Shown here: positions 15,205 to 38,741 of the stretch, piece by piece
How the letters are laid out: each line of letters starts with the position of its first letter
Position numbering within the stretch: position 1 is the first letter of the stretch
Source: Punctularia strigosozonata HHB-11173 SS5
Lineage: Eukaryota; Basidiomycota; Agaricomycetes; Corticiales; Punctulariaceae
NCBI RefSeq assembly: GCF_000264995.1
Contig: NW_006767444.1
Location: 160,082-224,081 of the forward strand
Direction of reading: 5' to 3'
DNA: 64,000 nucleotides
The notes under the pieces: model-generated
The model's database searches: none
The model's input: the letters and a program-made list of their open reading frames with translations, nothing else
Told to the model about the DNA's origin: nothing
Position numbers and translations under genes: made by a program

Positions 15205-17372
15205 TCACTCCTCGTCTTCGCCAATGTCATCCGCCGTCTGGTCTTCGTTCTCAATTGCATATGCATCCCTAATCGACAGCAACTCTTCCACCAGCTCCTT
15301 CATCTGCTCCTGTTCTAATCCGTTGTCCTGCGCTACGTTGAGTAGGGCGGACGAATGCATGTTTTTCCGTAGATACTCGGCGTGCAAGGATAATAGATTT
15401 GTGGTTGCGGAGTTCGTGTCCAATGAACTCATGACCGGCATTGAGACGATCTTCGGGCGCCTTGAGTTAGACGCTCGCCTTGACAGGATAGTTTGAGGGA
15501 AAGACGAGATGATAGGGAATGGCGGCAAAAAACGTCTGCAAGGGAGGGCTGATCAGCCGTGGTCCTCATTGGTCTCGAAAGATACACTCACGAAGTCAGC
15601 GCTGAATTGCTTCCTGCCCATTCAGCATAAACGTCGATGCTACTGTCGCTCAGGCCACGCAAGACGTCGCGCCGAGAAAATGAAGCAGTTCTCTGTGGGT
15701 TCAGTTCAGTCATGCGGCATTTGCATAACCCCGAAATGAGAGGCTCAAACCTTGCCTTGCCTAGCTTCGCTAGGCCACAGGCCGGACAAGTCGTAGAACC
15801 GGTTTTCGAGCACTGTACTGGTGATTTCGTCTGTGAACGGTAGGATTCCTCGGAGATGCGAAAAGCGTGTGTCGTTTTGGATGTTCAAGCTTTCCGAGAA
15901 GGAAGCAAAATCTTCCGCTTTCTTCTTCAACCTGAACCGATAGCGTATGAGCATGATCATAATGTTGGTCGAATGAGCCCGACCTAAGGGGTAGAGTCAC
16001 AGTCTCGATGTGAGTGGAAATGATCGTAGATGTATGATGCATGTTCGAGGTCTAGTGGTAGTCATTCAGTTGATGAGTGCAAAGGGTATACTTACTTTTA
16101 GCGCTCACCTCAAGCTTGCGGACGATCTCGTCCTTCAGTTTCGGCCACGTCAGTGCCGGGTTTTGAATAGGTACCGCGATGCTAGTGAACTCATTCAAGC
16201 TTTGCAACGCGAGCGCATCATTCAATATAGACTGAGCTTCCACATGTGGAGACTGCACAAGACGAGTTGATATGAATCAGGATATTACCATCATCGATAC
16301 TCACCTCGGTCGTTTCAGTCGTTGTCCAACGGCTCGCGGAATCATATAAGGTGATGCGCGACGACAAGTTTGCGAATGCGAGCGCAGGCAACTTCGAGAA
16401 GTCGTCGCGATAGGTTTGTAGAAATGAGTCAATGAAGCCACCGAATGCAGGAACGTCGTAAGTCAACTGGACTCCCTGCGAGAGGTCGTCAATAGAGCAG
16501 CGACGCGACACTGTTAACGTATGACAGACCTGTAACGAATCACACTCTTCGACGAATTGTCGAAATGATTCTTCCATTAGAGAGTTATCCTATGTGATGC
16601 ACATGTTGATGATCCCACATGCTGCATGCCAGTGAAGCGTATCCACGAACCGAATCGTACTGCTTGAACAGCGCTTGACCACTTGCCCAGTTCGTGGTCT
16701 CCGGGGACTCAGCCGCCGAAGGGTCCGGGAGTTTGTGTATAGACCGTGGCACATAGTACGGGTGCGAGTAGTCGGACCAGAATCGGATTCCTGGGTCGGC
16801 TTTCGCAGTCGCGTTTTCGTCGTTCTCGTCGTCATGTGCCTCGTTCTCCTCTTCAAGATGTCGCAAATACTGGCTCTTAGGCACCGGATCTTGAGCAAAT
16901 TCTACGACTTCGCCAGACCTGGAGGATGCGAGAATGTCAGCAAATACGCGTCAACCTCGCACCGAATGTGACGCACCAAGGAGTCATGTCCGCGTCCTTC
17001 TCCGGATAGAGATCATTAGTCCTGGCCAAACTTCCGAAGTTGGCTAATCTAGGTATCACAATAAACTGTCGCTACGTCGTGCTAGCTAACCGTACGACTG
17101 ACCACGTCGGTCAAAGATCAAGACTCTCGGGCAGTATGTAGGTTGGCCCTAACGCGGGCCGGTCAGTGTTTTGTACCACGATTACAGGTAAGGATGAACT
17201 CACATTCGTAGATAGCCCTTCTCTGAACGATTTGTCGTGATCCACGAGCGGATCTTCTGCCTCCGCGTCCTCCAAGTCCCCGTAGGTGAAGTAGCTCTCC
17301 TGCGTATTCCAGAAATGCGTGCCGATATGGTTGGCTAGATTACCAGCTTGAATGTAAAGGATCTCCCTCATG
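15205..17372 (-). CDS. DML1: DML1/Misato family protein
   Basis: The N-terminus MREILYIQAGNLANHIGTHF is the signature opening of the Misato/DML1 family, tubulin- and FtsZ-related proteins needed for mitochondrial DNA inheritance and mitochondrial distribution. Further exons carry GQPTYCPRVLIFDRRGQ, PVPKSQYLRHLEEE, IHKLPDPSAAESPETTNWAS, QLTYDVPAFGGFIDSFLQ and RDDFSKLPALAF, in family order. The C-terminus is acidic (QTADDIGEDEE). At least seven introns interrupt the gene. The family start was chosen although an in-frame ATG exists 18 codons upstream. It lies downstream of, and on the same strand as, the phosphatase gene. Confidence 0.9.
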
Positions 17373-17729
17373 ATGGATCGGAAAGCAGAGTTTCGTTGAT
17401 TAGTAGTGGAGAAAGCACAGAGCAACAGTCCCGTCGAAAATATGGAGAGAGAGTGCCGCCGATTAAAATACGCGCGCGCGGGTGGCCGAAAGCGGCAATT
17501 TTAGTCAGTTCGGTTGAGCAGTTTCGGGCTAAACTGACTTAATTGCATTGGAAGAGCTTGTGTAGATCTTGAGATCTTGTGTTCCATGGGGAGATGCGTA
17601 CTCCAGGACGCATCCGGTTGGTAAAGAAAGTATATGTGGCAATAATACAGGATCATCCGAGTGCTGTAGTATAGTAGTGCAGAAAAAAACATGAAAGAAC
17701 GTGGAGGGCGGGCAGGGCCCATACCACTC
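17373..17729. other. Intergenic between DML1 and phosphatase genes
   Basis: Holds the DML1 leader and the phosphatase 3' end. Two short GCGCGCGC-rich and AT-rich tracts, but no gene. Confidence 0.4.
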
Positions 17730-21050: not shown

Positions 21051-22670
21051 TCAGCTCGCCGAGGGTAAACGTTCGTGTCCCAAGATGCTGTGACGTGACA
21101 GCTCGCCGGTCGGGGTGTCGATCGCTATGGCCTCGAACGAGGGGGTCGAGGGTAGCAGGTAGGCGGGCAACGGCGGGGATATGTTGATCGTGTCGGTCGT
21201 GAAGGCCGGAAGGCCGGATTCGAGGTCCAAGGAGAAGGAGCTCGATGTGAACGAGGAAGGTAGTCCTTTCTCGGTGGTGTCGCTTCGGAGCAGGGAGACG
21301 TCCGAGGAGGTCCTGCTGTATGGCGGTGCTTTTTCGGAGGAGGAGCGAGGGGCCGGGAAGTAGCCTGCCTTTGGAGGAGGTGGGCATGTGAATCCCTTCT
21401 CGGTGGATCGGAAACCGGACCGCGAGATCAAGCTGAAGGGGCGTTGGGCATGAGGATAGATAGCGCAGAAAAGATTGGCCGTAACGTACTGAGAGCCTGA
21501 TCCGTTCGATGCTTGCACCGAGACCAAGGGCTTGAATCCCAAGCGCTTGGCGACGAACCAGAATGCGAGTTTGTAGTGCCGACGCGCCTCCTCTGCGAAT
21601 CCGAAGAACAGGAGGAAAATGATGGCGCAGGCGGGAACGCTCCATCGGCTGAGCTCCAGGGAGACGACATTTGAGTGGTTCAGTCGCCAGAGGACCGCAG
21701 GGATCTCCTCGACGCGGCTTTGGTCGTAGTGCGTGTCGGACCAGCTGATCCAAGGGTTGACGCCAAGGCGGGCGTTTAGTACGATGACGTAGATCGCCAA
21801 GGGAGTGTTGCAGAGAATCTCCGTTGTGGCAAGGGCCATCAGACGGAAGTAGCGACTGGTCGAGAGTCCCTTATTTGACGAGATGAACTCGCTGAAGGAA
21901 GCTTGGCGACGAATCAACGCGCGCAGCGATAGTACTGGATAGATAAAGTGTCAGATTGTAGTTACTACGTCGAACTGAACACACACCACAATAGACGGAA
22001 GAAATCAAGCCCAATAAGATCGGCCACGCGCTGACTAGGAAGAACGTCGGGATAGTGTCGTACAAAGCAGGCCAGCAGCCGACGTCCTCGAAAATATTGA
22101 AACGGTGTCCAGTAACGATGTAGGCTGCTTGAAAGGTTAGATGATGCAAGTAATATCATGCGAATGAGCTCACCCAGGACCATGACGATCATGGGAAGGA
22201 GAACGCAGATTAAAGTGTCGATAATGACGGCACGTTGTTTCTGAGTAGAAGGGTGAGCCTCAGTGGAAGTAAGAGGACGAAGAATCGCACCTCAGCTCGG
22301 ACGACTACCGCAGACGGAACACAGGCAATATTGTACAAGCGGCGGTTGATGCAGAGCGATGCGGCGGGGATCCCCACGGAGACGCCGATCGTAATGCGAG
22401 TCGCTGCCAACCAGGTACAGTTAGCATACGACCTACGCAAGATAGGAGTACAAGCTTACATATATCACACCATACGGGCACCCAGTTGATGGCATTGTTA
22501 TGCCATACAATCGAGTTGACGAACAGGTTGAGGGAGCCCAAGGAAGCCCAGATCATGTAGTAGCACGTTGCAGAGTTCCATGCTTGGAAGTGCCACGTAA
22601 GAGGAATTAGAGGTAAGACAAATCCCAGGCAAGCAAAGACAGGAAACAACGGCCAGGTTGAATCGGACAT
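21051..22670 (-). CDS. STE3-type pheromone receptor 1
   Basis: A class D seven-helix G-protein-coupled receptor for farnesylated peptide pheromones. The first exon (22460-22670) starts MSDSTWPLFPVFACLGFVLP and ends in the family signature WHNNAINWVPVWCDI. The next exons carry IPAASLCINRRLY (helix 3) and VTGHRFNIFEDVGCWPALY (helix 3-4 loop). The large last exon holds SRYFRLMALATTEILCNTPL, WSVPACAIIFLLFFGFAEEA (helix 7) and a Ser/Pro-rich cytoplasmic tail. Introns fall at the positions seen in the other receptors of the window. It lies head-to-head with the CIVA pheromone gene at 23159 and is most similar to receptor 3. Receptors of this family couple to a heterotrimeric G protein and a MAP kinase cascade that drives mating. 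Confidence 0.9.
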
Positions 22671-23158
22671 AAGGAGATGGTGGAGGATACTGGTGAGGAG
22701 AGGGTCGTTCACGGAACGAACTGGGTAGACAACCCAGTGGAAAGGCAGAGGTGCCAATTGGGTTGTTCACGACAGAGTTCCCGCCTTATGACTGACTTCA
22801 GGCCTGAATGAAGCATTAGACAATGCGGTCCCATTGACGATTGCGAAAAAGCTAGTGGGTGCAGTCAAAGCGCGTGGCGACAATGCGCGGCGGGTCAAGG
22901 CTGAGATCTGAGATCTAGTCACGTGCCATTTCACGTGACACCCTATCAGCCATTGTTCCTGCTTGCCAGAGGTTTCGGATGTGGCTCCAATGTTGACAAT
23001 GGTGGACGAGACGCGGAAGTAGTCGTATTGTCCCTAGAATGGGCATAAAACCGTGGAGGGGTCCGTCACACTCCTTTCTCCCCACCTTTCATCATCTTCG
23101 ATTTCGTTCCGCGTCACCGCGACACTTTGTGACCTTCGCATCCCCCGCTACCGACGTT
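22671..23158. other. Divergent promoter between receptor 1 and pheromone 1
   Basis: This 488-nt stretch separates the receptor (minus) from the pheromone precursor (plus). Apart from a TATA-like element nothing coding was seen. Confidence 0.5.
23044..23050 (+). promoter_or_regulatory. TATA-like box of pheromone gene 1
   Basis: CATAAAACC about 110 nt before the pheromone ATG, followed by a pyrimidine-rich leader. Confidence 0.35.
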
Positions 23159-23335
23159 ATGGACTCCTTCACATCCCTCGAGTTTCTCATCAACTCCTCG
23201 CACCCTCACCCCACCGATAATCCCAAGCCCGACGACAATCACGACGTCGATGTCGTTGATTTATCGGATGCCCTACCGGCCGACTTCGAGAAAGCCGGAT
23301 CGGGCATCGCGTACTCTTTCTGTATAGTCGCCTGA
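23159..23335 (+). CDS. Mating pheromone precursor 1 (CaaX = CIVA)
   Basis: A 58-residue intronless precursor. It begins MDSFTSLEFL, the MD-x-F opening seen in many basidiomycete pheromone precursors, has an acidic, Pro/His/Asp-rich middle, and ends AGSGIAYSFCIVA. The last four residues fit the CaaX rule: the cysteine is farnesylated, IVA is removed and the cysteine is carboxymethylated. The charged pair EK just before AGSG is a plausible N-terminal processing site, so the mature lipopeptide would be about ten residues (inference). It lies divergent to receptor 1. In known B loci a pheromone does not activate the receptor of its own haplotype. Confidence 0.85.
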   Translation: MDSFTSLEFLINSSHPHPTDNPKPDDNHDVDVVDLSDALPADFEKAGSGIAYSFCIVA

Positions 23336-24766
23336 TTTTCTTTATATTCTTCTTGATGGTACGTTTACATGCTCTACGCTACTTTGAATAGTAACCCTAA
23401 CTTGAGATTACAGTCAAACATGCACGATCATGTCACGACTTCGCCTTCCACTCTTAGTCGGTCTGGGACCGCTCTTCTCTTGGCAGTCGCGCTGTGCTGT
23501 GACTGTTAAATTATCTGTGAGTCACTGCCATCCGCAGCATCCTGCTGTTGTAATCCATCTAACACGATATTCGCAGCATTCATTCTCGCCTATTTATCAT
23601 GGTCTCGGGTGTTTCTTGCCTCGTGCATGCCCGTCGGCACCGATATCCTCGCAATTGTATTAGTCGCCATATATTTCCTACGACCACCATCGACGTAGTA
23701 GCAGTGTAGAGCGAACAGTAGTACAGTAGTAGTAATACCCCTTAACATTCGACCATGCTCTGTATAGTGATAGTTGCGCTATAATTCATGTTTTCCTTGG
23801 TTGTAAGTACTTCTATCGAGGGCCAATTGCAAGGTGAAGGGCTCATCAATTGGTCCTTATGCATCACCCAATTGTAGGAAGTTATCCATCATACGTATCT
23901 CCGGCTAGCTTTTTTGAAGTGTGTGACGGTTACGAACGATCTCGGAGATACTACATATGCAGGACAATGGTCATAGCGCACTCACTCATTGTGCACAGGG
24001 ATAACGTAAGGAGTCACATCAAGAAGGATCGACTAGTAGTGAGCCGGAGTCAACGTAGCACTGAGACGTACCGCGATATATTTATTGTTGGAGAGAAGGG
24101 CGCTGATCTATACCTCAGTTAGGCCCGGGACAATGGCCGGATTGAGCGTGGGAACTGGTATAAAAATAGATGACGCCCATTCACCTTGACACCATTGTTT
24201 TTGCCCGATGACGGTCGACCACAGCGTATTGTGGTCGCCAGCCGCAAGCTTAAACTCCAGAAAGATCGGATTCGGCGTGAAATATTTCTTGGCTGAACGT
24301 TGAAGCAGAAACGTTCGATAGGGAATTTCGGCGTTACCGCAGAGGCATCATCAGGTAGCTGTGCGACCCGGCGAATCGAGAAGGTCGATACGATAGAAGG
24401 AAAAACGTTTGCCATTACGCCAAGATTACAGTTTGTACTGGGTCGCGGGGATTACATGTGGTTGGATCGCTACAGTTTTACGTTTGTGCTTCGAACAATA
24501 CATAGCAGTAAATAGAATCCCGACACCGTCTCGATGTTGAAGACGAAGGGTTGAAACGGTGAGCTACCGGCTAGCGGCACTGTATCTAAGTTCGGTAGCT
24601 CGGTCCTGAGCCAGTGTATGGGAAGTTACGGGTTTGCACTTACCGATTTGAGAATGTCATACCCGAGGATCCATGGGTGGAGGGAAGCAATCGTTCACTT
24701 GATATAATTGTACCGGATCAGGAGGAGTGAGAAACTCGTGAGGTAATAGAGTACTCACAGGCAGAA
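23336..24766. other. Intergenic between pheromone genes 1 and 2
   Basis: 1.4 kb without a recognisable gene. I searched both strands for short frames ending in Cys plus three residues and a stop, and found none with aliphatic residues besides the two flanking genes. Confidence 0.45.
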
Positions 24767-24907
24767 TCATGATATGATGCAGTAGAACCCGAGACGGGAC
24801 GCGCTGTCCTCGTTCACGGGAGGAGAGTCATCGGAGTATTCTGGAGCAGAGCCGGATTGCTCGGGAGTAGCCTCGGCGAGAGGAAAGAGGGTTGCGAACA
24901 CGTCCAT
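24767..24907 (-). CDS. Mating pheromone precursor 2 (CaaX = CIIS), minus strand
   Basis: A 46-residue frame, short enough to be missed by gene callers. It begins MDVFATLFPL, matching the MD-x-F opening of the other two precursors, has a Pro/Glu/Ser-rich middle (PEYSDDSPPVNEDSAS), and ends RLGFYCIIS. CIIS is a valid CaaX box, and serine at the last position favours farnesylation. The segment NEDSASRLG resembles DEDSKLG in pheromone precursor 3, suggesting a shared processing site. It lies head-to-head with receptor 2, 527 nt away, with a TATA-like element on its own strand. Assignment as a pheromone rests on length, opening, CaaX box and position; no expression evidence is available here. Confidence 0.85.
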   Translation of the reverse strand: MDVFATLFPLAEATPEQSGSAPEYSDDSPPVNEDSASRLGFYCIIS

Positions 24908-25434
24908 GACAGTGGTGAATCAATCGAGTATGTGATCTGGTGTGGGTTTCGAAAGGTTTAAGGTGTCAACCTCACGGAGGAGAAACGAAGTGCGGTCGTC
25001 GCGGGGAAAGGTGGTAGGTGGGATGGGCAGTGCGACAGATGAGTACGTGAAATTTATACGATAGGATTATGCAGAATGAGGAGCAGACAATGGACAACGT
25101 AGACGACATTGTTTGATACGAGAAGAAGGCCCCTGACCTTGGCCTCGCCGCGGGTTGCGAAACTTGATCAGTGATCACGTGCCTGGGTACCGTATTTCAG
25201 ACTCCGGCAAGCCGGCTGCCCATTGTCCTTTCAGTCCCTCGCGTTCGACTTACAATGGCTGGTAGACAATGGATATCTACTTTTGGCCTGCGTTCCCGTC
25301 AGCATCGAATGCCGCCATTACGCCCTAACCCGTGCTGCTCATGCTCAGCTTATAGATCATAGGACTCCATCGAAGCACCTTCCGCCTCTTACCGCAAATT
25401 TCCACCTTCCGTTGGCAAAGCCATCCCCAACAAC
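24908..25434. other. Divergent promoter between pheromone 2 and receptor 2
   Basis: Contains the TATA-like element of the pheromone gene on the minus strand. No coding content seen. Confidence 0.45.
25052..25059 (-). promoter_or_regulatory. TATA-like box of pheromone gene 2
   Basis: CGTATAAATT on the minus strand, about 145 nt before the pheromone ATG. Confidence 0.4.
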
Positions 25435-26870
25435 ATGTCGTTCACCCAACCTCTCGCTATGCGGACCCTTCCATTTCTGGCTGCATCACTAGTTCTTGTG
25501 CCTTTACCCTGGCATTGGCGCTCGCGAAACGTCGCTACCGTCAGCATGATCCTCGTTTTGTTCTTGAGCAATCTCATGTGGGGGATCAACGCCGTATTAT
25601 GGAGTGAGGATGCGATTATACGGGCTATTACGTGGTGCGACATTAGTACGTGTATACGCGTTTATCCCAACGTGAGAGATGTTGAATGATATCATTGCAG
25701 CAACGCGTTTCCAAATGTACGCGACTATGGCGTTACCAGCCGCAAGTCTCTGCCTCACTATCCGACTTGAGGGTATCTCGTCTTTGCGAAGAGCTCGCAT
25801 AACTCATGACGACAAACGCCGGGCTCTCATCATCGATTTGCTGCTCTGTTATGGCGTTCCGCTTCTGTTCACCGGTGCTTGTAAGTCGATTACCCCTTGT
25901 TTTGGGCATCGCTGACTTGCGGCACCTATATCTCTCAGATATCATTGTGCAAGGGCATCGCTTCGATATCATCCAGACTGTTGGCTGCCGGCCAACTATC
26001 TACGTGTCCTGGCCTGCCATCCTGATTAGTCTGATGCCTCCACTATTGGCTTCCGTCATCTCCTGCTTGTTTGCCGGTATGTTATCTTCCGTTATCGTGA
26101 TTCTTCACCGTTTTGAGACCACCTTCTTAGGTCTTTCACTTCGTAATTTCATTCAGCGTCGGGCAACCTTCTCCAAACACCTCCAGTCGGGCCAGTCCGG
26201 TCTGACCACGTCCAGATATCTCCGCCTCATTTCCATGGCGCTTGTCGAGATGACATGGGGCTTGTCCGTTGGCATAACGAATATGTATGCCACTTTCATG
26301 GACGGCTTGCGGCCTTGGACAGATTGGAACGACGTTCATTCCAATTTCTCCCGCATTGGACAGTTCCCCCTCGTTTTAGTGCCACACCTCAACGTCGTTC
26401 TCCTCTACGTTACCTGGTGGATGATCCCGATATCAGGCTTTCTATTCTTTGCCTTCTTCGCCTTCGGAGAAGATGCCGTCAAGGAATACCAGTCATCGGT
26501 CGCTTGGGTGCGCCGCACGATACTGCGGCAACTGCATTTCAGGTCGATGCTTGCCGGTCGTATCTCCTCGCGAAGCCGAGCTGGAGTATCCCCTTCCAAG
26601 ATGCAGGGAGTCTCTCGCACGAATTCCAAGACGCATGTCACGCTCTCTTCGCCGTTCAAGTCGGAGCTGGCCAGCGTCTCCACCGGCAGCGAAGATACGC
26701 TGTCAACCCGGAATTTACCACCATCTTACGAACTTCTTCGTGCCAACCCGGCCATCGCATATCCGTCTTCATATACCTGCTCGAATACCGGTTGCCCGCC
26801 TACCGCTGGTCCATACACCTTCCACGACACAATGACTTCCGATCACGCTTACACCCAGGATATCGTATAA
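25435..26870 (+). CDS. STE3-type pheromone receptor 2
   Basis: Exons 25435-25645, 25701-25878 and others join to a full seven-helix receptor. Landmarks in order: FLAASLVLVPLPWHW (helix 1), WSEDAIIRAITWCDI (end of helix 2, signature more divergent than in receptors 1 and 3), LPAASLCLTIRLE (helix 3), VQGHRFDIIQTVGCRPTIY, TSRYLRLISMALVEMTWGL and ISGFLFFAFFAFGEDAVKEY (helix 7), then a Ser/Thr/Pro-rich cytosolic tail. It is divergent from pheromone precursor 2 and convergent with receptor 3. Function as for receptor 1: recognition of a farnesylated peptide from a compatible mating partner. Confidence 0.9.
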
Positions 26871-27438
26871 CATGGCTTCATTCATGGCTACCTTCACAAA
26901 TGCATGTATTTATTAATATTTATCAAGTTTCCGTCGCGGGTTATATATATCGCTGTATTGATCCTTCCGCCTTTTATGACAATCACGTTGTGCTAGAGAC
27001 ACATCATGAAAATCTCGAATACCGTGGCTGTCATGGGCCGTTCATAGTCACATTCAGGCCATTTTCGCGGGGCATCCTATTGGCACACATACCGATGTGC
27101 TGAACTGTTCGTCTCGTTTTGTCCCAGGTCATCTTAGACTTCAACGCTCGAGATCGCTATCGTGCTCGCTTCGCAAGCTGATACCATTCGGTAACTGCAG
27201 ACTGGATTTCTCGTGGATACATTCATACGTAAAGCTATTGCTACAAATGGGCATCGTATTACGTGTATACTAACGTATCATTCACATGAAATGCACTAAT
27301 ATGAGCACACATGGCTCTCTCGGCATGAGATGCGAAGCACTAAGGTGTGTTATGCCTGACCCGGAAAAGTCGAAGTGAGGGACAGGCCGAAGGACGTTAA
27401 CGGGAGGACTAGACGTTCTCGGGTGACCGGGATGGTGG
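26871..27438. other. Convergent intergenic region between receptors 2 and 3
   Basis: AT-rich spacer holding two 3' ends. Nothing else recognised. Confidence 0.45.
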
Positions 27439-28962
27439 TCAATAATGGTGGCCTTGCTCCGCCATCCAAGGAGCAATCGCATATGCCTCTGGGTGACTAT
27501 GCATTGAAGCGTTGCGAGAGATGTCGATCACTTCGAAGAGAGGCGGCGGGGTAGAAGGGGTATTCGGCTCGTCCCTGCGAGCCTCCTCCGCCTTCGCATT
27601 CGAAGCAGCCGGTGACGGCGGCGAGAGCGCGGAAGAATCGTTCACGTGTTTGTGGTATGGTGAATCGTGGTTGTAGTCGAGCGAATCAGCGCCGACGTGC
27701 GTTTGCGAGAGACTGGAACCGAAGTCGGATTTCGATGGATGGATGAATGTCGGGAGCGTGGAACCGGAGTATCTGTACGAAACCTGATCAATACATGTCG
27801 GCGGACAGGTAAGGGCGAAAACGAACGAATGGTTGCTGTCGTTGCGCGACTTAGGGGACAAGCCGAACCGCTTAGCGATCCACCAAAAGGCCGCACGATA
27901 GTGCTTACGCGCCTCATCGGCAAAGCCGAAAAGGGCGAAGTATACGAAGCCGCAGAAGACGAGGCTCCAGCGGAAGAGTTCAATGGAGATTTCGGAAGCG
28001 GGTACGGATCTCCAGATCACGGACGGGATCTGGTGTATTCGAGAGTAATGCGCGTGGGTGTCCGCCCAGCTGATCCAAGGTGCGAGGTTCCCGGGTCGGA
28101 GATTGAGATAGGTGCCGTAGATGCAGAGCGGGACGGTGACCAGAATCTCCATCCCGGCCAGTATCATCAGGCGGAAGTAGCGACTGATGCTCATAGCGGA
28201 CGTCGAGGACGTGAAAGCGCTGAATTGGGCGCGGCGTTGGAAGAACGCCCGAAGAGTGAGAACTGCGAGCGGTGCGTCAGCTTATGTGAAGGCGGAGCAA
28301 AACATGAGCGGGACGAACAAGCGTAGCTTGCAGACACGAGGCCGATGACAAGGGGCCACAACTCCGAAAGTGGATATGCCACGGGAGTGTTATACGTGAA
28401 GGGATAGCATCCAAGGTCTTCGTATATGTCGAAGCGATGTCCGGAGACGATGTATTCTAGTTATAGGGTCATGAGCTTACTTGAAGAACTCTGAGACAAC
28501 AACACTGACGCATGGGCAACTGAATGAGTGGAATTCCGAGACCAATCGCAAGGTCGATGTAGACGTCGCGTCGTTTCTGCTCTTTCGTTACAAGCACATT
28601 CGAGATGGATGCGATTCTATAAAGGCGCCTATTGATACACAGAGAAGCCGCAGGTATCGCTACCGAGGCAGCAACAATGATATGCGATGCTGAATAGAAG
28701 ACGGATTAGCTATCGCGAGTACTGCTACGGGACACAAACTCTTACATATATCGCACCATACGGGTGCCCAATTGATCGCGTTATTGTGCCAGATGATGGA
28801 ATTGATGGCCAGGTTAAAGTTCGAAAGTGAGATCCAGAGCATGTAGAGGCATGTTCCGGAGTTCCATGCGTTCAGGTGCCATGGTAATGGGACCAGTACG
28901 AGAAGTCCACTGAGAAAGGATAGGACAGGGAAAGCTGGATAGCTGGGGTCTGAGGCGAACAT
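27439..28962 (-). CDS. STE3-type pheromone receptor 3
   Basis: The first exon starts MFASDPSYPAFPVLSFLSGL and ends WHNNAINWAPVWCDI, nearly identical to receptor 1 in this stretch. Later exons carry ISGHRFDIYEDLGCYPFTY-like loop sequence, then ISRYFRLMILAGMEILVTVP, PWISWADTHAHYSRIHQIPS and VYFALFGFADEARKHYRAAF, again very close to receptor 1 (PWISWSDTHYDQSRVEEIPA, LLFFGFAEEARRHYKLAF). The cytosolic tail diverges. The gene is head-to-head with pheromone precursor 3. Receptors 1 and 3 therefore look like a recent duplicate pair; whether they differ in pheromone specificity cannot be read from sequence. Confidence 0.9.
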
Positions 28963-29614
28963 GATGCCGGAAGGGAAGCTCTATGTGTGAAGGGTTTGGG
29001 CGCGCGATAGCAGTGGAAAGACATTTTCTTTATGAGCTTGGTCGCAGCGTCCATCGCGGATGGTACAATGGGATGAGCGAGCTCAAAATCGTCTTTGTTC
29101 TCGATTATGTAACATCGGCTGCTCAACATTTCCCACGGTCCAGTTACCTCAATGGGACGGTAGAGATTCTACCACCGTGCAGGCCCCGATCGCCAGCTCC
29201 TCTTCAGCCCATGCAGCATTCAAAAGCGTACGTGCCGGCTCTGAATACAAGAGGAGCTAGGGCTGACTGTTACCAAGTTGTCGCACAGTACCTTGTAGTG
29301 TCCTCCTCTTCGTGCCCGACTCTCGCATGATATATACTTCGCCCGACATAGATCGGAGGAACAATGCCTATGCTTACAATTACCCCCCATTGTGGTCTGC
29401 ATACGGGGCTTGACATATTATTATGGCACAATAGGGCCATATATAAAAGCATAGTGAGCTCTCCTCCGGCACCACCCTCGTTCGCATTCCCTTGCTCAAT
29501 ATCTTAGACGCATCATCCTTGTGATTTGCTCGCGGCGTCTATATCCTTCGTCGTCTTTGTCGCGCACTTCATTCGCGTCTCGCGCACCCAACTTCGAGCA
29601 GGTCTCATCATTCA
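28963..29614. other. Divergent promoter between receptor 3 and pheromone 3
   Basis: 652-nt spacer with a strong TATA-like element on the plus strand. No CaaX-ending short frame was found on either strand. Confidence 0.45.
29440..29448 (+). promoter_or_regulatory. TATA box of pheromone gene 3
   Basis: CATATATAAAAGC about 170 nt before the ATG, followed by a CT-rich leader; the clearest TATA element of the mating-type region. Confidence 0.5.
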
Positions 29615-29767
29615 ATGGATTCATTCCAAGCTATCGCCGAACTCGTCCTTGATGCGACACCTCTACCCAAGCCTGACGCCCTCGATTCTCTCATGAGCGA
29701 GCCAGCTGGCATACCGACCGACGAAGATTCGAAACTTGGTCTGGCGGGCTACTGCGTCATCGCATGA
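29615..29767 (+). CDS. Mating pheromone precursor 3 (CaaX = CVIA)
   Basis: A 50-residue intronless frame starting MDSFQAIAELVLDATPLPKP and ending SKLGLAGYCVIA. CVIA is a classic fungal pheromone CaaX box. The acidic DEDSK segment precedes the likely mature peptide, which would be about seven to ten residues. The opening MDSF is shared with precursor 1. It is divergent to receptor 3. The frame is too short for most gene finders. Confidence 0.88.
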   Translation: MDSFQAIAELVLDATPLPKPDALDSLMSEPAGIPTDEDSKLGLAGYCVIA

Positions 29768-30602
29768 TCCGAAACATGCGACGAGCTAATCCCTGTCAGT
29801 TCTCTGCTTCCCGTCTTTCTGCGTTGCTCATTACGGTCATTCAGACAGACATCGATGCCACGACACCACCCCCAACCCGCATCAGTGACGGCTGCGCCGT
29901 TGCCATACTTTACCATCCTTCTGACCGATTCATCTTGACGTATACATTTCATGATATCGTAAACTACAGACGAAGGGTTATGAGGTCATAGTGTCTGTTT
30001 TGGCGCATCCATACTGCCTTCAAGTTCGTTCACAGTTGCGACGTAACTTCAGATTGTATTGCTATCCGCGTATATGTATATATATAGCTCAGAATGCATC
30101 GTGCCAGTGTCTCCCTGACATCCGCGTGTCGTCGTGCTGCCTCCGTAACTTCGAAGGAAGTCGTTCAAGAGACTAACGTTTAGCATAGAAACCGAGCTTC
30201 TATTTACTGTTCACCCTGACCGTGGCGCGCCGTCAATCACCTTGAGTCAAATTATTGTGCCCTCGTCTTGACATGATGATACAACTACGTGAATCTATCG
30301 ATGCGATTGACGAGTCTTATTTCTCCTTCGTAACAGTTCGTAAGGCGAGGATTACCGAGTGTTGTGGTACTAGAGCGGAAGAGCGACGAAACAAAGGGAT
30401 CGCTTGACAGTCGACGTAAAGCGATGTCCTGCTACGAGACCAACCCGAAATGAAACCCCTATGAATACAACCAAGAATGGTAAGCCAATGAAGTAAGAAG
30501 CGAGACGGAAATGGATGTCATGAGCTAGGAATAATTGCGGGATGAGAGCGAGGCGAGTGTCCTATGTGCATTAGGTTTAAATTGGAGATCGTGAGGCGAT
30601 CA
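29768..30602. other. Intergenic between pheromone 3 and receptor 4
   Basis: No gene recognised. An in-frame CAVA at 29893 does not precede a stop and is not called. Confidence 0.45.
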
Positions 30603-32410
30603 TCATCGGTCATGAACCTCCTTGACTACGGTCATGTATATAGCTTCCGGCGCATGACTTTGCAAGGAGACTTTTGGCGTACGGTTCGGGGGCGTGGACA
30701 GGAGCTCGATCTCTACGGATAACAGTCCGGGCGAAGGGGGCGGAGAGAGGTAGATGGCAGACGGCGCAGCCGACAAGGACTGGGGCAGGTCGGCGCGTGG
30801 TCGGCGTATGCATGGAAGAGATTGCGCGGGGGCCAATCGGGACATGCGGTCGCGGGCTGGTAGATGACTACTGCGCGGCTTCGCGGGGAGGGGTGGTACA
30901 CCGAGATGAAAGTCTAATCCGTGATCTGTCATTCGAAGAATATTCGACGAGTTGGAGACAGAGACGATAGAGTTGTGCGTCGACGCTATTCCGGAGTAGG
31001 CCCCTGGAGAATCGGGGTAATATGTTCCCAGCGCGTTTAGATATTGATCGCGCTGGAACCCTAGGTAGGAGAGCGAAGATGCAGCATCGTTGGCACCGAA
31101 GATGGGCGCGCTGTGGGGGTGGCTGGGGATTCCAGGTAGCGAGAGGTAGTATGACCCAGTCCGGATGCTATCACGAGCACGTCCTCCCTCTGTTGCGAGT
31201 GTCGGTGATGCATTGATACTCCCCCAGTCCTGATCTGCCCATGATGATGAAGGACGATGCCTATAGAAACATGAGATACAGTGAAGCGCAAGATACGAGT
31301 AATACTGACAGGGTTGGTGATGCAAGATCATCCCTAGCCTTCATTTGGGGAGAAAGCTTCGTTAAGCGTCGGCTTGTCTTCTGCCTACGGAACAACTTCG
31401 AGTGCGATAGCCATTGCCAGCATTCGACCCATTTATCTATGACCTCTTCTCCAAATGCAATGCAAGCTACAGTGATTCCAGATGCAGCCGGTATCGACCA
31501 CCACAAGAACAAGTTCTCGGCTGTTGCGTTTTCGGGCAAGACAGGGATTGTGTTGAAGTCTGAGCGCACCGCTGATATCGAAGTCCAAGGAAGCAACTTG
31601 CCATTCGTCATGCGAATATGACTGTCGAGATCGACGGAAACGGAGGTGATGGAGAGGATAGAAAGCGCAACTGCTAACGATAAGAGCCGAAGGGATTGGC
31701 GGAATGGAGGACGAGCTGATACGGCTGCCAAGGCGTGTCTGTAATGAAGAGTACTCCTCCGACGAAGGATAAACCGAAGCGCAATCACTTAAAGAATCTC
31801 AGCTCTTGGTAAACAAAATAGTATCAAGTACTCACCACTTAGAACAAGAGAGGCCACGGAAAGCATAAGAGGCGGCAGCCAAAATATAACTACAGCAAGC
31901 GCCGACGTATATGTACTGGGCCTGCATCCCACATCGCGTACGATATCGTAGCGATGGTCTTGCACTATTGCATGGAGTCCGACAAAAACCACAGGAAAAG
32001 TCAAGCAAAAAAGCGTGTCGACCAAGAGCCGCCGGTCGCGACGGATCGCACCCTCCTGATAGCGCGAGGATAGAACCGACTCGGATGCAAGCCGCAGGCT
32101 AATGCATAGGCTCGCGGCGGGCATAACGAAGTCGAACGCAATTATCAACGCGGAGCCTGAGATGTCATCAGCATACACTTTGCAACACGAGTACGCTACA
32201 CGTACTAATCTCGCACCAGGTTGGTGCTGTTGGGTTCACGTTGCCAGCCCATATTATGGAGTTGACGGCGAACGCGACGTCCAGCACGAATAGCCAAGCG
32301 AGTATCGAGGCGACCGGAATGTTTAATGGCCGAAAGTAATACGGCGCAGGGATCAGTACGAAGAAAGCGGCGACCAGAGCGGTCACCGGCATCTGAACGG
32401 TTTGCATCAT
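30603..32410 (-). CDS. STE3-type receptor 4 (second receptor group)
   Basis: Starts MMQTVQMPVTALVAAFFVLI, with helix 2 ending WAGNVNPTAPTWCEI (Glu where the others have Asp). Helix 3 is FVMPAASLCISLRLA, the loop VQDHRYDIVRDVGCRPSTY, and helices 5-7 lie in LRLLSLAVALSILSITSVSV and WWSIPAASGITVACIAFGEE. A final exon (30603 to about 31290) adds a long Ser/Pro-rich cytosolic tail. An in-frame upstream ATG at 32500 exists but the shorter start matches the other receptors. The sequence is closer to receptors 5 and 6 than to 1-3. No pheromone gene was found beside it, as is usual for the non-mating-type STE3 paralogues known in Agaricomycetes. Confidence 0.85.
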
Positions 32411-33274
32411 GACTGAGTGCGCCGCGACTGCCCGTCTACGAAACACAGGAAGGCGAACGGGTGGACGGGAGGGTGAGCGAGTTGAGAGCACGACAACCAA
32501 AAGCCAGTTCCTGTGCCTCTTTGTAACTGAAAACGAGCGTTCGCTCGTCTAACATTGCCTACGAGGCCGCAGGCCTCGCGTGCGGCGATACTCCCATACG
32601 AATCCTCGACAGCGCCGATAAGGTGGACAGAAGTGGGCGAAGACGAGGCAGCCCGCAAAAGGGAGAAACCGTGTTTCATCTCGTTATTTCTCGATACACC
32701 GTTAGCGCGCCGACGAGAATTCCCAAGCCACCGAGTGCGCCGACGGTGTCCCAGACACCATATGAAAGCCAAAGCACGTCGGAGAAGCAGGAGTAGCGAC
32801 CCGAGACACCACTGCAGTGACTGCACCCTGGAACAGTGGAAATCCCATTGGCGTTACGCCACCAGCACCCCCGCCACGGCTCGGAGGACAGCTGCACTTC
32901 TGGCCTCCCCTGACCCGCCCCGTTCCGTGGCGATGGGATCTCATTACTCTCGTGGAACTCCCGTGGAATGATTCGTGTCGCAGAGCTTCGTACCGCGAGC
33001 ACGTTTGGAGGTCGAAAGTGGAGGCTAGACAGACACGCGGAAGCGGCCGTGCTCTGGTGCCCGCGGGCGTTCACTGTTCACTGGGCCCGGCCTGCTCCGA
33101 GGGTCGGGCAAAGCAGTCAGGGAGCCAGATATTACGAGCGGATATGAGTATGGCATTGGACGTTGGGAAGCAGATGTTAGACAACAGGTGATACAGTAGA
33201 AGTGTGAACGCTTCGAGAATGTGAAAACGTCCAAACACGCCGCAAAGAACCCTACTATGCGATCCACTCTAACC
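32411..33274. other. Intergenic between receptors 4 and 5
   Basis: Overlapping open frames on both strands (about 130-138 codons, 32555-33074) show no recognisable motif or family and lack a CaaX end. GC-rich, no repeat seen. Confidence 0.35.
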
Positions 33275-35249
33275 TCATCGGTGCGAAGTGCTGGGCTCGT
33301 TGGTTTCATATAGCCGGTCTGGCTCAGAAACGCTCGCAGGAGGCAGGGATGATATTCGCAGCGATGACGGTACGGCTGGATCGCTTGGCGACCCATGCGA
33401 CCGCCCCAACGCACTCTCCCCGCCACTCTGTCGCGTCGTGGTGGTCGTTTCGCTCGCGTGGCGGGCCAACCGCGCCTTTGGCGGTCGCGGGAACATGGAT
33501 AGTAGGTTTGGGGATGACGTCGTGCGCGAAACCCCGGGGCGGGAATTGCCGTGAGGAACGCGGCTGAGCTGAGGCCGAAGGTCGAAGTAGCGGGAGGAGC
33601 AGGTCATCTCCGGTTCGTAGGTCTGGCGTATGGGATCGGGGTAAGGGGAGAGCGTCGGCGCGAGATCATCCTCGGTGGAGACGATGTCGATGACAGGAGA
33701 GGGGATCCTCGACTGACGGCACTGCGCGTAACGCGGCCGTCTCGGGACAGTAGGTGAGAGATCGGAGAGGAAGACCGACTGGGCGTATCCCGCGGAGGAA
33801 GGATAGCAACCGATGGGCTCCGGCCTCGTGTCTGTGCCGCAACCAGATGGCGGAGATATATCCGAGCTGAACCACGAATTATCGTACGAGGAAGATGCAT
33901 CGGACTCGTACAGCGCCGGGAGCGTGGAGTCTCGCACCCCTGAGTTGGAGGTAGAAATTGAAGAAAGCCGGCTTGCCGGAACCTGCCCCCGGGAAGATGG
34001 CTTACGACGTATAGAGCCGAAGCTGCATAACCATAGATCAGAAAATCGATGGCGGTGTAGTGCCTTTAGTTACTCACACTGATGGCAGCGATGCCCGAGA
34101 ATCCATCTCTGGAAGAATCGACTGATGTTTCTCGCGGACTTCATCGCGTCGGGAGCGCTTGCGGTTGAAGGCGACTCCGAGCCTCCGCGATAATTCTGCC
34201 CACGCCTGCACAATTTCTTCGTTCCCAGCTGCGAGAGCGATGTAAACGGCCGCAGCAATAGGCGTCGCCCACCAAAGGAACATGTAGGATGGCATGAGAG
34301 CCCGGTGATCGGTGATGGTGAATATGTCGATGCGACCATGCTCGGCGTGAACGGCATCGAGTGATGGCCAAGAAAGGAGCTTCCCACCAGCAAGTCGCAG
34401 TTGAATGGAAACGTCCACAGCCGTAGTGTTGATGGACCACGCTGCGAGGACGATGGCGAGGAATATATGACGGGGGGCGGAGTTGGAAGATGAACGAGAG
34501 GTACGGATGGAGGCAGTATCATACAAGGACTCAGACCGATTGGGCGTGAGCTTCTGGAGTAACGTTACTAAGGCGGTACGTGTCAGAGGTTAGGTCACGG
34601 GCGGAGTGAAGGGAGGTGTGACTCACCAGAGAGTATCAACGTAGCCACAGAGAGTAAAATGGGAGGCAGCCAAACTAAGATTATGCTTGGCACGGATGCA
34701 TACGTGGCGGGACGACACCCAACGTGCTGGACGATATCGTATCGATGGTCTTGTACAATGATGTCTATGGCAGGGTGAGTATGCGTCTTACCTACAGTGG
34801 AAGGTTTGCTTACGGAGGGCAATATATACTACAGGTGTAAGAGAGTAGAGGAGGCTCTGGACCGTCTGTTTGGTTCGGGATGACTTGGGTAAAGCTTCGG
34901 AACCAAAGGACGGTTGTACCAGGTCGACTACAAGATGCAGGCTCGCAAGGGGAATAGCGACGTTGAAGCCCGTTATCACTGCAGCGACTGGTCATGGGTG
35001 CATGATCAGGATACTGTATCTTCCGCGCGCGAGTGAAGGATACTCACCAATGTCGCACCATGCGGTGTTGACTATGTGCACGTCACCATACCAGACGATG
35101 GAGTCGATCGCAGAAACGAGGTTCACAGCGACCAGCCAACCAAGCATAGACACCAATGCAACGCTTCGGGACCAAACCACAGCTGGTGCGGGGACAAAGC
35201 AAAGAAAGAAGCAAAGTAGGGAGAACAGCGGCATCTCCGGGCGCTCCAT
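33275..35249 (-). CDS. STE3-type receptor 5 (second receptor group)
   Basis: Chosen start MERPEMPLFSLLCFFLCFVP aligns with receptor 4; an in-frame ATG at 35312 would add a hydrophobic 21-residue leader. Helix 2 ends WYGDVHIVNTAWCDI, helix 3 is IPLASLHLVVDL, the loop reads VQDHRYDIVQHVGCRPATY, nearly the same as receptor 4, and helices 6-7 lie in MFLWWATPIAAAVYIALAAG. The last exon (33275 to about 33940) is a long Ser/Pro-rich tail. Receptors 4 and 5 are tandem on the same strand with matching intron positions, so they look like a local duplication. Confidence 0.83.
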
Positions 35250-36238
35250 CTCTCCAACGTTGGTGACAAGGAGGAGCGCGCCTTGACTAAGAAACGGGAG
35301 AAAAAGTTCCACCCGGGCGCGATGGGATGAGCGCGTGTCGAGTTTTGTATGTTTTGTCCGTTTAAAAGGCTGACCTAGCTAACGGGCGTTGCTAGAATTG
35401 CCGAAGGCCGATCAAGCTCGTTATTTGACAGCGCTTGACGTCCAAGACCGGTGGTCGAAGGGGGGCAAATGTGCTCGTCCGCGGGTCCGCCGGAGCTTCC
35501 TTCAAGTCATCCCTCGATAAAGCGGTGCCCGGAAGAGGCAAACATTGCACCGCTGGCGAACGTCAAGTCTTTAGCCTAGAGGTTGGCGGCGATTGCGCGG
35601 CATAGGACGCACACATTGGTCCGAGCATTCCTACCCTGACTTGCGTCATAGACCCTAACAAGTTCAACGGGGTAACGAGTACTGTGAATCAGGACCGCTG
35701 GAAGGTTTCAGGTACTTGTTGCTGCCGAGACAGCGGGCATCCGACGCGTCATATCGCGGCTTACGACGAGCTGAAGAGGCATCAACGAGTGCCTAGCTTG
35801 GTATTATTCATGTTTCTGATTTGAGACGAGGTTCGAAGCCTCGAGTTGAAGTAGACTAGAGCATTTATCAGATAAATGAAAAGCTCTCAGCGAAGCAGGA
35901 AGAAACGGGGTCACATGTACTGCCTGATACTGATAGTGAGCAATGATTAATGGTGCATTGATCCCGTGTCAACTACCCTACGTCATCATCTGCCGGTTAC
36001 CCCGGATTCGGCGTTTCTCTGTGGTCTGCGACGTTGGTCCTGTCGACAGAGTCAATACTTGCCCAGTTTCTCGTGCACCTCTCGTTTCTCACTTCGAAAG
36101 TCGTATAACTCGACTACGGTGCACGTTGTTTTTGGGTAATCAAGCCCGCGCGCCGTTTCAGAGTGTCTTGACGCCAAAATTAGCTGACGCACGCGACCGC
36201 GCGATCCGACAGCCTCTCATTCAAACCGCACTTTCTCC
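35250..36238. other. Intergenic upstream of receptor 5 and of the membrane-protein gene
   Basis: 989 nt between divergently transcribed genes. I searched both strands for CaaX-ending short frames and found none that qualify. A hairpin near 35830 (CGAGG-TTCGAAG-CCTCG) mimics a tRNA T-arm but no tRNA fits around it. Confidence 0.4.
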
Positions 36239-37803
36239 ATGGCAAGCACGAGCACCGGTCTCCGGAAGCGCATGGGCTTTCTGCGGCGGTCAAACATTCA
36301 TCACGATACACTCGACGAGCTGGGCATGGACGAGGTGCAGGACGATGTGCGTCTGGATGATCATCTAGCAGTCGACGCCGGGATCATAGGCTCGTCCATA
36401 ACCGAAGAGGCGACGGAATCGGAGTCGGGAGACGAGACGACCGAAGAAGAGGGCGAAGTGGACGGTGACGAGGAGGAACTGCGGGGTCCAGAGAAGGAGG
36501 CGGAGGGGAGCAGCAAGCGAGGACAAAGTTCTTCTCATACAGGCGACGACAGGCCCGAGCGCCCAGCACTTGACATGCCGAAAAGACCACCATCGATTCC
36601 AAGGACTTCAAGTATCAGGCGCCCGCCCAGTGAGGAGACGTCGCCGGGCATCTCCCGACGGGCGTGGTACGAGTTTGACCTTTCAGTGGTCGTCGCACTC
36701 GTCTCTCCTCTAGGCAACCTCTTGACTGGTGGTGACCACGTGCGGAATATCCTCCTAATTATCCTTCTGATATTCTACCTCCACCAAGTTATCGAGGGTA
36801 AGCGCTCCTCGCTAACGCTGGGCTCTTCGGACTGATCAAGCCTTTACACTTAGTCCCCTGGTCACTTTACCACTCATCTCGGCCGCGTCGACGAGCGCCG
36901 GAAATCCGTGTAGACGGCACTGTAGAGGAACGGTACCTACAGCTAGCATCGTCGGAACTGCGCAGGCTTGAATTGTTCTTCCTCCTCCTCACCGTCATAT
37001 CACCATTTCTGGGTGCTCTTTTGCTACGACGTATCAGCGAAGCGGTCCTTGGTCACAACGCAATCTCCTGGTTCTCTAGCGGCCTTTTTGTCCTTGCAAC
37101 CGGCATACGGCCTTGGACCCATTTAGTCGAACGCCTTCAACAGCGGACGACAGACCTCCACGACATTGTCCATTACCCCTCTTCGGGGTCACCGGCGCTA
37201 GTCCTTGATGCCCAGGAACAGTTGGATGCGCTCCGAGATCGTACGGAGCTTCTCGAGACCGAGCTCCACGACGTGAAGCAGCAGCTCAAAGACATGGTCA
37301 GCACAGACGAGATGTACGAACACGTCGACGAAGCGATCGAGGGTGTCGAGAGGGCGCTGCGCAAGCAAGAACGCAAGGTCTTCGCAGGCAGGTCGACGGA
37401 GGAATCTCGTATCGCGGCCCTGGAGGCCATGGTAGAAGCAATGCGGGCGGAGCGCATTCTGCAGGCACAGCCGCCTCCGACGCTCGGCGCATGGCTATCC
37501 TCCTTTGTTCCGTATTGGCTCGTCCGGGAGACAGAAAACTATCAAAAAACTCGCAGGTCGTCCCGACTGCATTCCCTTTCGGCTTCTGGCTCTCCCCGAC
37601 TCGAGACGATACCCGAGGACGATGGATACGGATACGTTAGTCCAACAAATTCGAGGTTTGTTAGCTCCAAACCTCGATCACGCGTTCGCATCCCATTCCT
37701 CAATATTGTGTTCCGGGTCGGAGACCTCGCGACTTTACCCATCCGGGCCTTCTTCGGCTACCTTCTCTCCCCTCGGTCTATTATATCCCCGTACGCTCGC
37801 TGA
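36239..37803 (+). CDS. Multi-pass membrane protein with coiled coil, conserved-looking hypothetical
   Basis: Two exons (36239-36797, 36854-37803) give 502 residues. The N-terminal 140 residues are hydrophilic and very acidic (DETTEEEGEVDGDEEEL), then RRAWYEFDLSVVVALVSPLG leads into two hydrophobic segments (about 152-187). A further pair of membrane helices lies at about 224-270 (LFFLLLTVISPFLGALLL). Residues of about 300-370 form a coiled coil (LRDRTELLETELHDVKQQL). The C-terminus carries an amphipathic segment, a Ser/Pro linker and a last hydrophobic stretch. I do not recognise the family. It sits between receptors 5 and 6, so it is linked to the mating-type region, but nothing in it suggests a mating role. 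Confidence 0.75.
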
Positions 37804-38741
37804 TGGTCGCCAGTTCGCATCTGATTATCTGTGGTCTTCCATTTTGAAATCCGAGCCTATCCTGTGTCTGTTTGACACGTTCATTCCTTGTTCCTCGATA
37901 TCGATATTCGTGTTCGCGCTTCCGTCTTTCTCTTGGTGATAGTTCGTCTCATTGGGACAGCAAGATTCATTGTAATTATTATCATTGTCCTATTGTCCTC
38001 CCTCGCTTCCAATAGTCTTCGACTGTATCCCTTCCCGACTAGTTCACTCTGTATTAATCATCTGTACCATTGTCAGAGTCTTGGTCGAACACATTGTCCT
38101 TGACACGCTGGCGGACGTCTCTCCGATCCTTCCGGTTACTTATGACGTAAACGCGGTTTGACGTCCATAAAAGGAAACTGCAATGGCGGAACCTTAACCT
38201 CGACCGGTTTTAGGCCATCCCTTTGTCTCGCACCTTCTTGTCTCCGGTCCTCTCGAGGCTAACGTCCCGATCGGTGCGAGTCGTGCGCTTTTGTTTCCGC
38301 ACGCGAACCGAAATGGTCTTGTCGACCAAAGTTACATTGTTCTCCTCCGGGTAGTTTGATTGTCGGACTGAGTTGGCTGAACAATATGCAGTCCTTTTTT
38401 CTTCTAGGATTCTGGCGATACTACCGGGAGTGCTTCCTTCAAAGCACAGTTAATATGAAAGTATTGTGCCCGTGCGCACGAGAGACTCTATTCTTCCCCC
38501 CTCATTCTCGCAATCTTTTCCTGGAGGGAGGGATCTCCTCGACCTGGCGGCAGGACCTTCACGAGCGTTGTTCAGTAGTGGCAAGCGATCCATTCATCGA
38601 ACATCTGGTGTCTCTATAGAGTGCGATACCTCATCTACCTCATCTACCCCGGTCGGTATAATCTGGCTTCATCGAGGAGAGCGCGTACACCTCGGCCGCC
38701 TATCCGACATCACATCCTAATCACCCGACGCATCGACCGCG
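37804..38741. other. Intergenic upstream of receptor 6
   Basis: T/C-rich sequence, including several long pyrimidine tracts. Both strands were searched for pheromone-like frames; only a CDVG-stop at 38706 was seen and it lacks aliphatic residues. Confidence 0.4.

Follow-up and report, generated by a model that had tools for sequence, protein, structure and literature searches.

Relationship to Described Mating-Type Loci

The closest described counterparts of the locus reported here are pheromone/receptor (P/R) mating-type regions of other basidiomycetes. The locus lies in a stretch of 64,000 nucleotides (nt) from Punctularia strigosozonata HHB-11173 SS5 (contig NW_006767444.1, positions 160,082 to 224,081), referred to below as the window, from the first letter of which all positions are counted. 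It comprises three STE3-type receptor genes (R1 to R3), each divergent from one gene for a CAAX-type pheromone precursor (Ph1 to Ph3), followed by three further STE3-like receptor genes (R4 to R6). This is very probably the pheromone/receptor (B, MATB, or PR) mating-type region of an Agaricomycete, an identity that the first-pass annotation of the sequence had proposed and that the STE3 genes, the CAAX genes, and a neighboring DML1 gene support well.

In Hypsizygus marmoreus, the P/R locus holds three STE3 genes, three CAAX precursors of about 50 amino acids, and two receptor-like genes (STE3.s) within approximately 22 kb; a glutamate lies about 10 residues before the CAAX motif, and PHB2 and PHB3 flank one receptor (PMC8686365). 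The Punctularia locus resembles this in its gene content and in the position of the glutamate, and differs from it in having three receptor-like genes and in placing one precursor back to back with each of the paired receptors. Coprinopsis cinerea has several pheromone genes per receptor, whereas here there is one. The likeness to that species lies in the three functional, paralogous receptor-pheromone subgroups of its B locus and in the non-mating STE3-like genes nearby (PMC8305134). Trichaptum MATB also has DML1 in its flank and a mixture of mating and predicted non-mating STE3 genes, and is unlike the present locus in its four receptors and two precursors (PMC8970355). Among the Polyporales, compared by counts only, the matB clusters of Sparassis crispa (seven receptors and three precursors; PMC6207663) and Grifola frondosa (six receptors and five precursors; PMC10607315) have numbers similar to those found here.

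Three modules accompanied by extra receptor-like genes are nothing unusual for a B locus and fit the known Agaricomycete layout. The sole unusual point is the strict one-to-one divergent pairing together with a common cis element, ACAATGG, for which there is no description among the matches listed from the open-licence literature. Smuts belong to a different subphylum. Their PR locus is like the present one in carrying repeated HMG-type sites, ACAAAGGGA, at pheromone and receptor genes (PMC3248468), and unlike it in the core of the site, which here is ACAATGG, a putative HMG site.

Three Divergent Receptor-Pheromone Modules

From left to right, the gene order is R1 (minus strand), Ph1 (plus), Ph2 (minus), R2 (plus), R3 (minus), and Ph3 (plus), and the three modules span 21.05-29.77 kb. 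The first-pass annotation had described three head-to-head STE3/CAAX pairs with spacers of approximately 490-650 nt, and intact spliced gene models bear this out: all three receptor/precursor pairs are divergent, and their start codons are separated (ATG to ATG) by 488, 527, and 652 nt. What it had omitted is the continuation of the locus past the modules, where R4 to R6, intact and without pheromone genes, occupy 30603-40660. Its description of the divergent pairing as regular stands for three of three pairs; receptor and pheromone orientations vary between strains of Trichaptum (PMC8970355) and of Flammulina, so divergent pairing is not a general rule and need not be constrained.

Receptor models were spliced by hand at GT-AG introns (49-58 nt in R1 to R3), and their re-translation gives uninterrupted open reading frames (ORFs). 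All six receptors match the Pfam STE3 family (PF02076, cut-off 29.2 bits), with scores of 158.8-360.6 bits. R1 (21051-22670, minus strand) encodes 470 amino acids and has four introns, with exons at 22460-22670, 22291-22403, 22174-22240, 21987-22124, and 21051-21934 (353.4 bits). R2 (25435-26870, plus strand; 316.3 bits) encodes 422 amino acids and R3 (27439-28962, minus strand; 360.6 bits) 452 amino acids, each in four exons separated by three introns. With the cut that was applied, a simple hydropathy scan gave six peaks for R1 and R2 and seven for R3 to R6.

The three precursors are Ph1, of 58 amino acids ending in CIVA (23159-23335, plus strand), Ph2, of 46 amino acids ending in CIIS (24767-24907, minus strand), and Ph3, of 50 amino acids ending in CVIA (29615-29767, plus strand). 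Each matches the mating pheromone profile PF08015 (cut-off 22 bits) over its whole length; one of the three, Ph1, passes the cut-off (35.9 bits), Ph2 falls just below it (20.0 bits), and Ph3 lies below it (14.9 bits, E = 0.058). A glutamate is found upstream of the CAAX cysteine in all three, at a distance, counted by eye, of 11 residues in Ph1 and 10 in both Ph2 and Ph3. CAAX-like ends are rare, being present in 4 of 521 ATG-started ORFs of 25-130 amino acids in the window, namely Ph1 to Ph3 and one ORF without a Pfam match. When no ATG is required, eight such ends occur in 20-42.5 kb, three of which are Ph1 to Ph3; the other five were considered as extra pheromone genes and are, by eye, unlike precursors. 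One of these five, an ORF ending in CSIS inside the Ph3 promoter (29364-29507), has no Pfam match and was judged to be a chance occurrence.

A Common Element in the Spacers

ACAATGG is present in all three spacers. The 488-nt spacer between R1 and Ph1 (22671-23158) carries it at 22950 and 22996 and has a CATAAA box 115 nt upstream of the Ph1 ATG; the 527-nt spacer between Ph2 and R2 (24908-25434) carries it at 25087, 25220, 25252, and 25266 and has TATAAA 151 nt upstream of the Ph2 ATG; and the 652-nt spacer between R3 and Ph3 (28963-29614) carries it at 29065 and 29387 and has TATAAA 173 nt upstream of the Ph3 ATG.

All 7-mers of the spacers (1,667 nt in total) were enumerated with both strands pooled, the rest of the window amounting to 62.3 kb. 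ACAATGG ranks first among 1,453 spacer 7-mers: 8 of the 16 copies in the window fall in the spacers, where 0.23 would be expected. Dinucleotide shuffling of the spacers never produced eight copies in 2,000 trials (maximum, two), the top count of any 7-mer across 500 spacer shuffles was five, and none of 3,000 random triplets of intervals outside the modules yielded a 7-mer as extreme. The element lies no more than 350 nt from the start in all six paired genes, and it is absent within 600 nt of R4, R5, and R6 (zero of three). A site-plus-TATA unit, defined as ACAATGG followed 20-60 nt downstream by [TC]ATAAA, is found five times in the window, before Ph1, Ph2, Ph3, and R3 and as an orphan between Ph1 and Ph2 (24130-24170, plus strand, pointing right); in 200 shuffles of the window the mean was 0.13 and the maximum two. 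The orphan unit has TATAAA as its box; no CAAX ORF was found downstream of it, and there is no plus-strand CAAX-like end between 23321 and 29493. BLASTN gave no match between the three spacers, so the common ACAATGG sites are not plainly leftover duplicated sequence.

The smut pheromone response element ACAAAGGGA begins with a seven-base core from which ACAATGG departs at one base; the exact smut element occurs twice in the window and not in the spacers. We take ACAATGG to resemble an HMG-box site. In smuts, the HMG factor Prf1 activates mating-type genes via pheromone response elements ACAAAGGGA (PMC3248468), and in Cryptococcus the pheromone and receptor genes carry pheromone response elements to which the HMG protein Mat2 binds (PMC3744442). 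On the strength of the likeness to the smut element and of HMG control in these two groups, each spacer may be read as a bidirectional pheromone-responsive promoter. The enrichment of ACAATGG, observed at the level of sequence, supports the suggestion that the modules are co-regulated, and with eight copies spread over all three spacers the shared promoters envisaged in the first-pass annotation gain support. No report of ACAATGG in mushroom P/R promoters is found among the matches listed from the open-licence literature, nor in the available part of the Schizophyllum commune promoter study (PMC8161036).

Apart from ACAATGG, the spacers contain CACGTG E-boxes, three of the nine copies in the window being located in spacers 1 and 2 (22671-25434).

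Receptor Relationships and Unpaired Receptors

A maximum-likelihood protein tree of the first 330 residues of R1 to R6 (midpoint root, no outside sequences) splits R1, R3, and R2 from R4, R5, and R6, with inner-branch supports of 99/96, 100/100, and 100/98; the separate branch of R4 to R6 has a support of 99/96. R1 and R3, which share the same orientation, are 51% identical across 329 aligned columns, and the identity of every other receptor pair is 35% or less; modules 1 and 3 therefore look like same-orientation duplicates. Module 2 sits between them, inverted, and its receptor belongs to a more distant lineage (35%). The proposal that the modules were duplicated consequently holds for modules 1 and 3 and does not apply simply to module 2, given the distance and opposite orientation of R2.

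Self-BLASTN at E up to 0.01 gave four matches with a start in 19-42 kb; all four fall within receptor genes, and no duplicated spacer or right flank was seen among them. When receptor or pheromone relics were sought by comparing the nine proteins with the window by tblastn (E up to 10), many weak matches were obtained beyond the known genes, the best being R3 against 193-405 (E = 0.003, 31% over 81 columns), possibly by chance, and the next R4 against 47703-47455 (E = 0.032). In Smith-Waterman comparisons of the three inter-module regions, on both strands, with the six genes, which made 36 comparisons with 40 shuffles apiece, z exceeded 2.5 once, for 29768-30602 against R4; this weak DNA similarity (z = 4.2, score 34, highest shuffle score 32) is possibly also due to chance. 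A receptor fragment near 24.5 kb, suspected by eye, is supported neither by tblastn nor by Smith-Waterman alignment.

The unpaired receptors are R4 (30603-32410, minus strand, 553 amino acids, PF02076 191.8 bits), R5 (33275-35249, minus strand, 583 amino acids, 158.8 bits), and R6 (38742-40660, plus strand, 570 amino acids, 205.4 bits), none of which has a recognized pheromone gene. The last intron of R4, in the C-terminal tail, is uncertain, and the protein is shorter without it. No pheromone-like CAAX ORF lies beside R4 to R6 in a scan of ATG-started ORFs, with the remaining CAAX-like ends judged by eye. In Agaricomycetes, STE3-like genes that lack a mating function occur widely in the vicinity of PR genes, and their role is described as unsettled (PMC8305134, PMC8161036); R4 to R6 are probably such non-mating receptor-like genes, which often flank the B locus.

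R4 and R5 are neighbors on one strand and are 34% identical. Between R5 and R6 (36239-37803, the end coordinate being set by eye) there are gene-like ORFs without a Pfam match, which by eye contain hydrophobic stretches and a charged region.

Flanking Genes

The Pfam scan of the flanks took in 27 ORFs outside the receptors, from part of the window, and 11 of these have a match at the thresholds applied (12 when repeats of one gene are counted). In successive sets of 10, 10, and 7 ORFs, those with a match numbered 8, 3 (two of them on genes already identified), and 1. In the left flank, a DML1/Misato gene is represented by unspliced ORF pieces (16221-17500, minus strand; PF10644, 64 bits against a cut-off of 26.5); PF14881 matches two of the pieces at 32.2 and 23.1 bits, the cut-off being 30. 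DML1 is a flanking gene of the Trichaptum MATB region (PMC8970355), and the matB locus of Taiwanofungus has other named neighbors, dim1 and pho84 (PMC8865532). Further neighbors named by Pfam are EMC1, a calcineurin-like phosphoesterase, a carbohydrate phosphorylase, an Msb1/Mug8 domain protein, RRM proteins, and an alpha/beta hydrolase. A cytochrome P450-like ORF (41433-41855, minus strand) scores 22.0 bits against a cut-off of 22.8, and directly after the Msb1/Mug8 domain match there is a stop-free frame of 1,510 codons (51161-55690, plus strand) rich in glutamate, alanine, proline, and valine.

Alternative Interpretations

Several points tell against reading the region as a mating-type locus whose modules are controlled through ACAATGG. 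The evidence is the DNA sequence of a single haplotype, so that mating function and polymorphism are predictions; PAK, RSM19, RIC1, and SNF2, which are neighbors of Trichaptum MATB, are not among the 27 ORFs scanned, a set covering part of the window; Ph2 and Ph3 lie under the Pfam gathering score; and pheromone genes for R4 to R6 may be located outside the window. As for the element, it was found post hoc and from one locus, and the best 7-mer from the random interval triplets has p = 1.3e-9 against 1.4e-10 for ACAATGG, a small margin; with less than tenfold between this real-sequence control and the motif, the enrichment is solid without being overwhelming. Of the 16 sites, three are situated in the interval from Ph1 to Ph2 at a distance from known starts, and another is 675 nt upstream of R6. 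The choice of the site-plus-TATA pattern, in which CATAAA is accepted, came after the sites had been seen, and the starts of R1 and R2 have no such unit. The motifs reported by the S. commune promoter study are different ones, Tec1-like and Fhl1-like (PMC8161036).

One alternative, to which we give serious weight at somewhat less than an even chance, is that mating specificity resides in just one or two of the three modules, with conserved copies making up the remainder. There is precedent in Trichaptum, where balancing selection acts on STE3.2 and STE3.4 and not on STE3.1 and STE3.3, so that two of four STE3 genes are predicted mating genes (PMC8970355), and in Grifola, where nonsynonymous differences between B types occur only in PR1 and PR2 (PMC10607315). 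Against this, all three modules here have their own precursor and ACAATGG, and the unpaired receptors have neither nearby.

It is unlikely that the region is instead the PR-orthologous region of a bipolar species, no longer deciding mating type, with modules that are invariant between strains and may retain a signaling role after fusion or during development. Such regions are known: the bipolar polypore Phanerochaete chrysosporium has a cluster of three receptors at its ortholog of the B locus (PMC4101180), and in Agaricus bisporus the PR genes show no linkage to mating type (PMC8305134). The single precursor per receptor in Punctularia is also in the direction reported for bipolar Boletales, tetrapolar species having more per receptor (PMC5473757). 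On the other side, all three receptors and their precursors are intact and compactly paired, and bipolar Boletales tend to have fewer receptors (PMC5473757) whereas six are present here; neither point is decisive.

We likewise consider it improbable that the clustering of ACAATGG is an effect of chance or composition without a regulatory role. The post hoc choice of the motif from one sequence, the three further copies in the Ph1-Ph2 interval, which holds no recognized gene, and the closeness of the real-sequence controls speak for that reading; the shuffle and random-interval controls, the placement of sites before TATA-like boxes, and the absence of the element near R4 to R6 argue against it. 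Finally, the idea that misassembly of a dikaryon has joined two alleles of a single sublocus, R1 and R3, would fit their shared orientation and 51% identity, but it is very hard to credit when all four self-BLASTN matches that start in 19-42 kb (E up to 0.01) lie inside receptor genes and no spacer or right flank appears in duplicate among them.

Proposed Mechanism and Implications

If the region is a B mating-type locus, each precursor would most likely yield a lipopeptide pheromone, farnesylated at the CAAX cysteine and trimmed near the conserved glutamate, and the released pheromone would be recognized by receptors of a different B haplotype. The activated receptor would then signal through a G protein and a mitogen-activated protein (MAP) kinase cascade, at the end of which an HMG-box factor may act on ACAATGG in each spacer to raise expression of both genes of the module. 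The genes, their arrangement, the split in the tree, and the enrichment of the motif are results of the present analysis. Non-self activation, farnesylation, and control through MAP kinases and HMG factors are features of other basidiomycetes, taken from the literature and from general knowledge of the pathway. We infer that the modules vary between strains and, by analogy with smuts and Cryptococcus, that an HMG factor may use ACAATGG. The three modules could provide as many as three sub-specificities that vary independently, and a single compatible pair would suffice for B-regulated development; several sub-specificities in one haplotype, as the first-pass annotation had envisaged, are plausible by analogy with Coprinopsis.

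A more speculative possibility, which we put forward tentatively and regard as rather doubtful, is that each pair forms a cassette complete in itself, its bidirectional promoter driven by an HMG factor, and that ACAATGG, which is near every paired gene and not near the unpaired receptors, marks the STE3 genes of the mating system. Whole cassettes could then be acquired, turned around, or deleted, and the orphan unit at 24130 would be what remains of a deleted one.

To the B loci already described, the Punctularia region adds one that is compact and fully readable, with a single pheromone gene for each receptor. In Trichaptum, many strains were needed to separate mating from non-mating STE3 genes (PMC8970355); ACAATGG offers a cheap hypothesis, requiring sequence only, for telling mating-type STE3 genes from receptor-like genes. 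Should the element prove to be shared by other mushrooms, pheromone control in Agaricomycetes would be tied to the HMG-factor circuit known from smuts and Cryptococcus.

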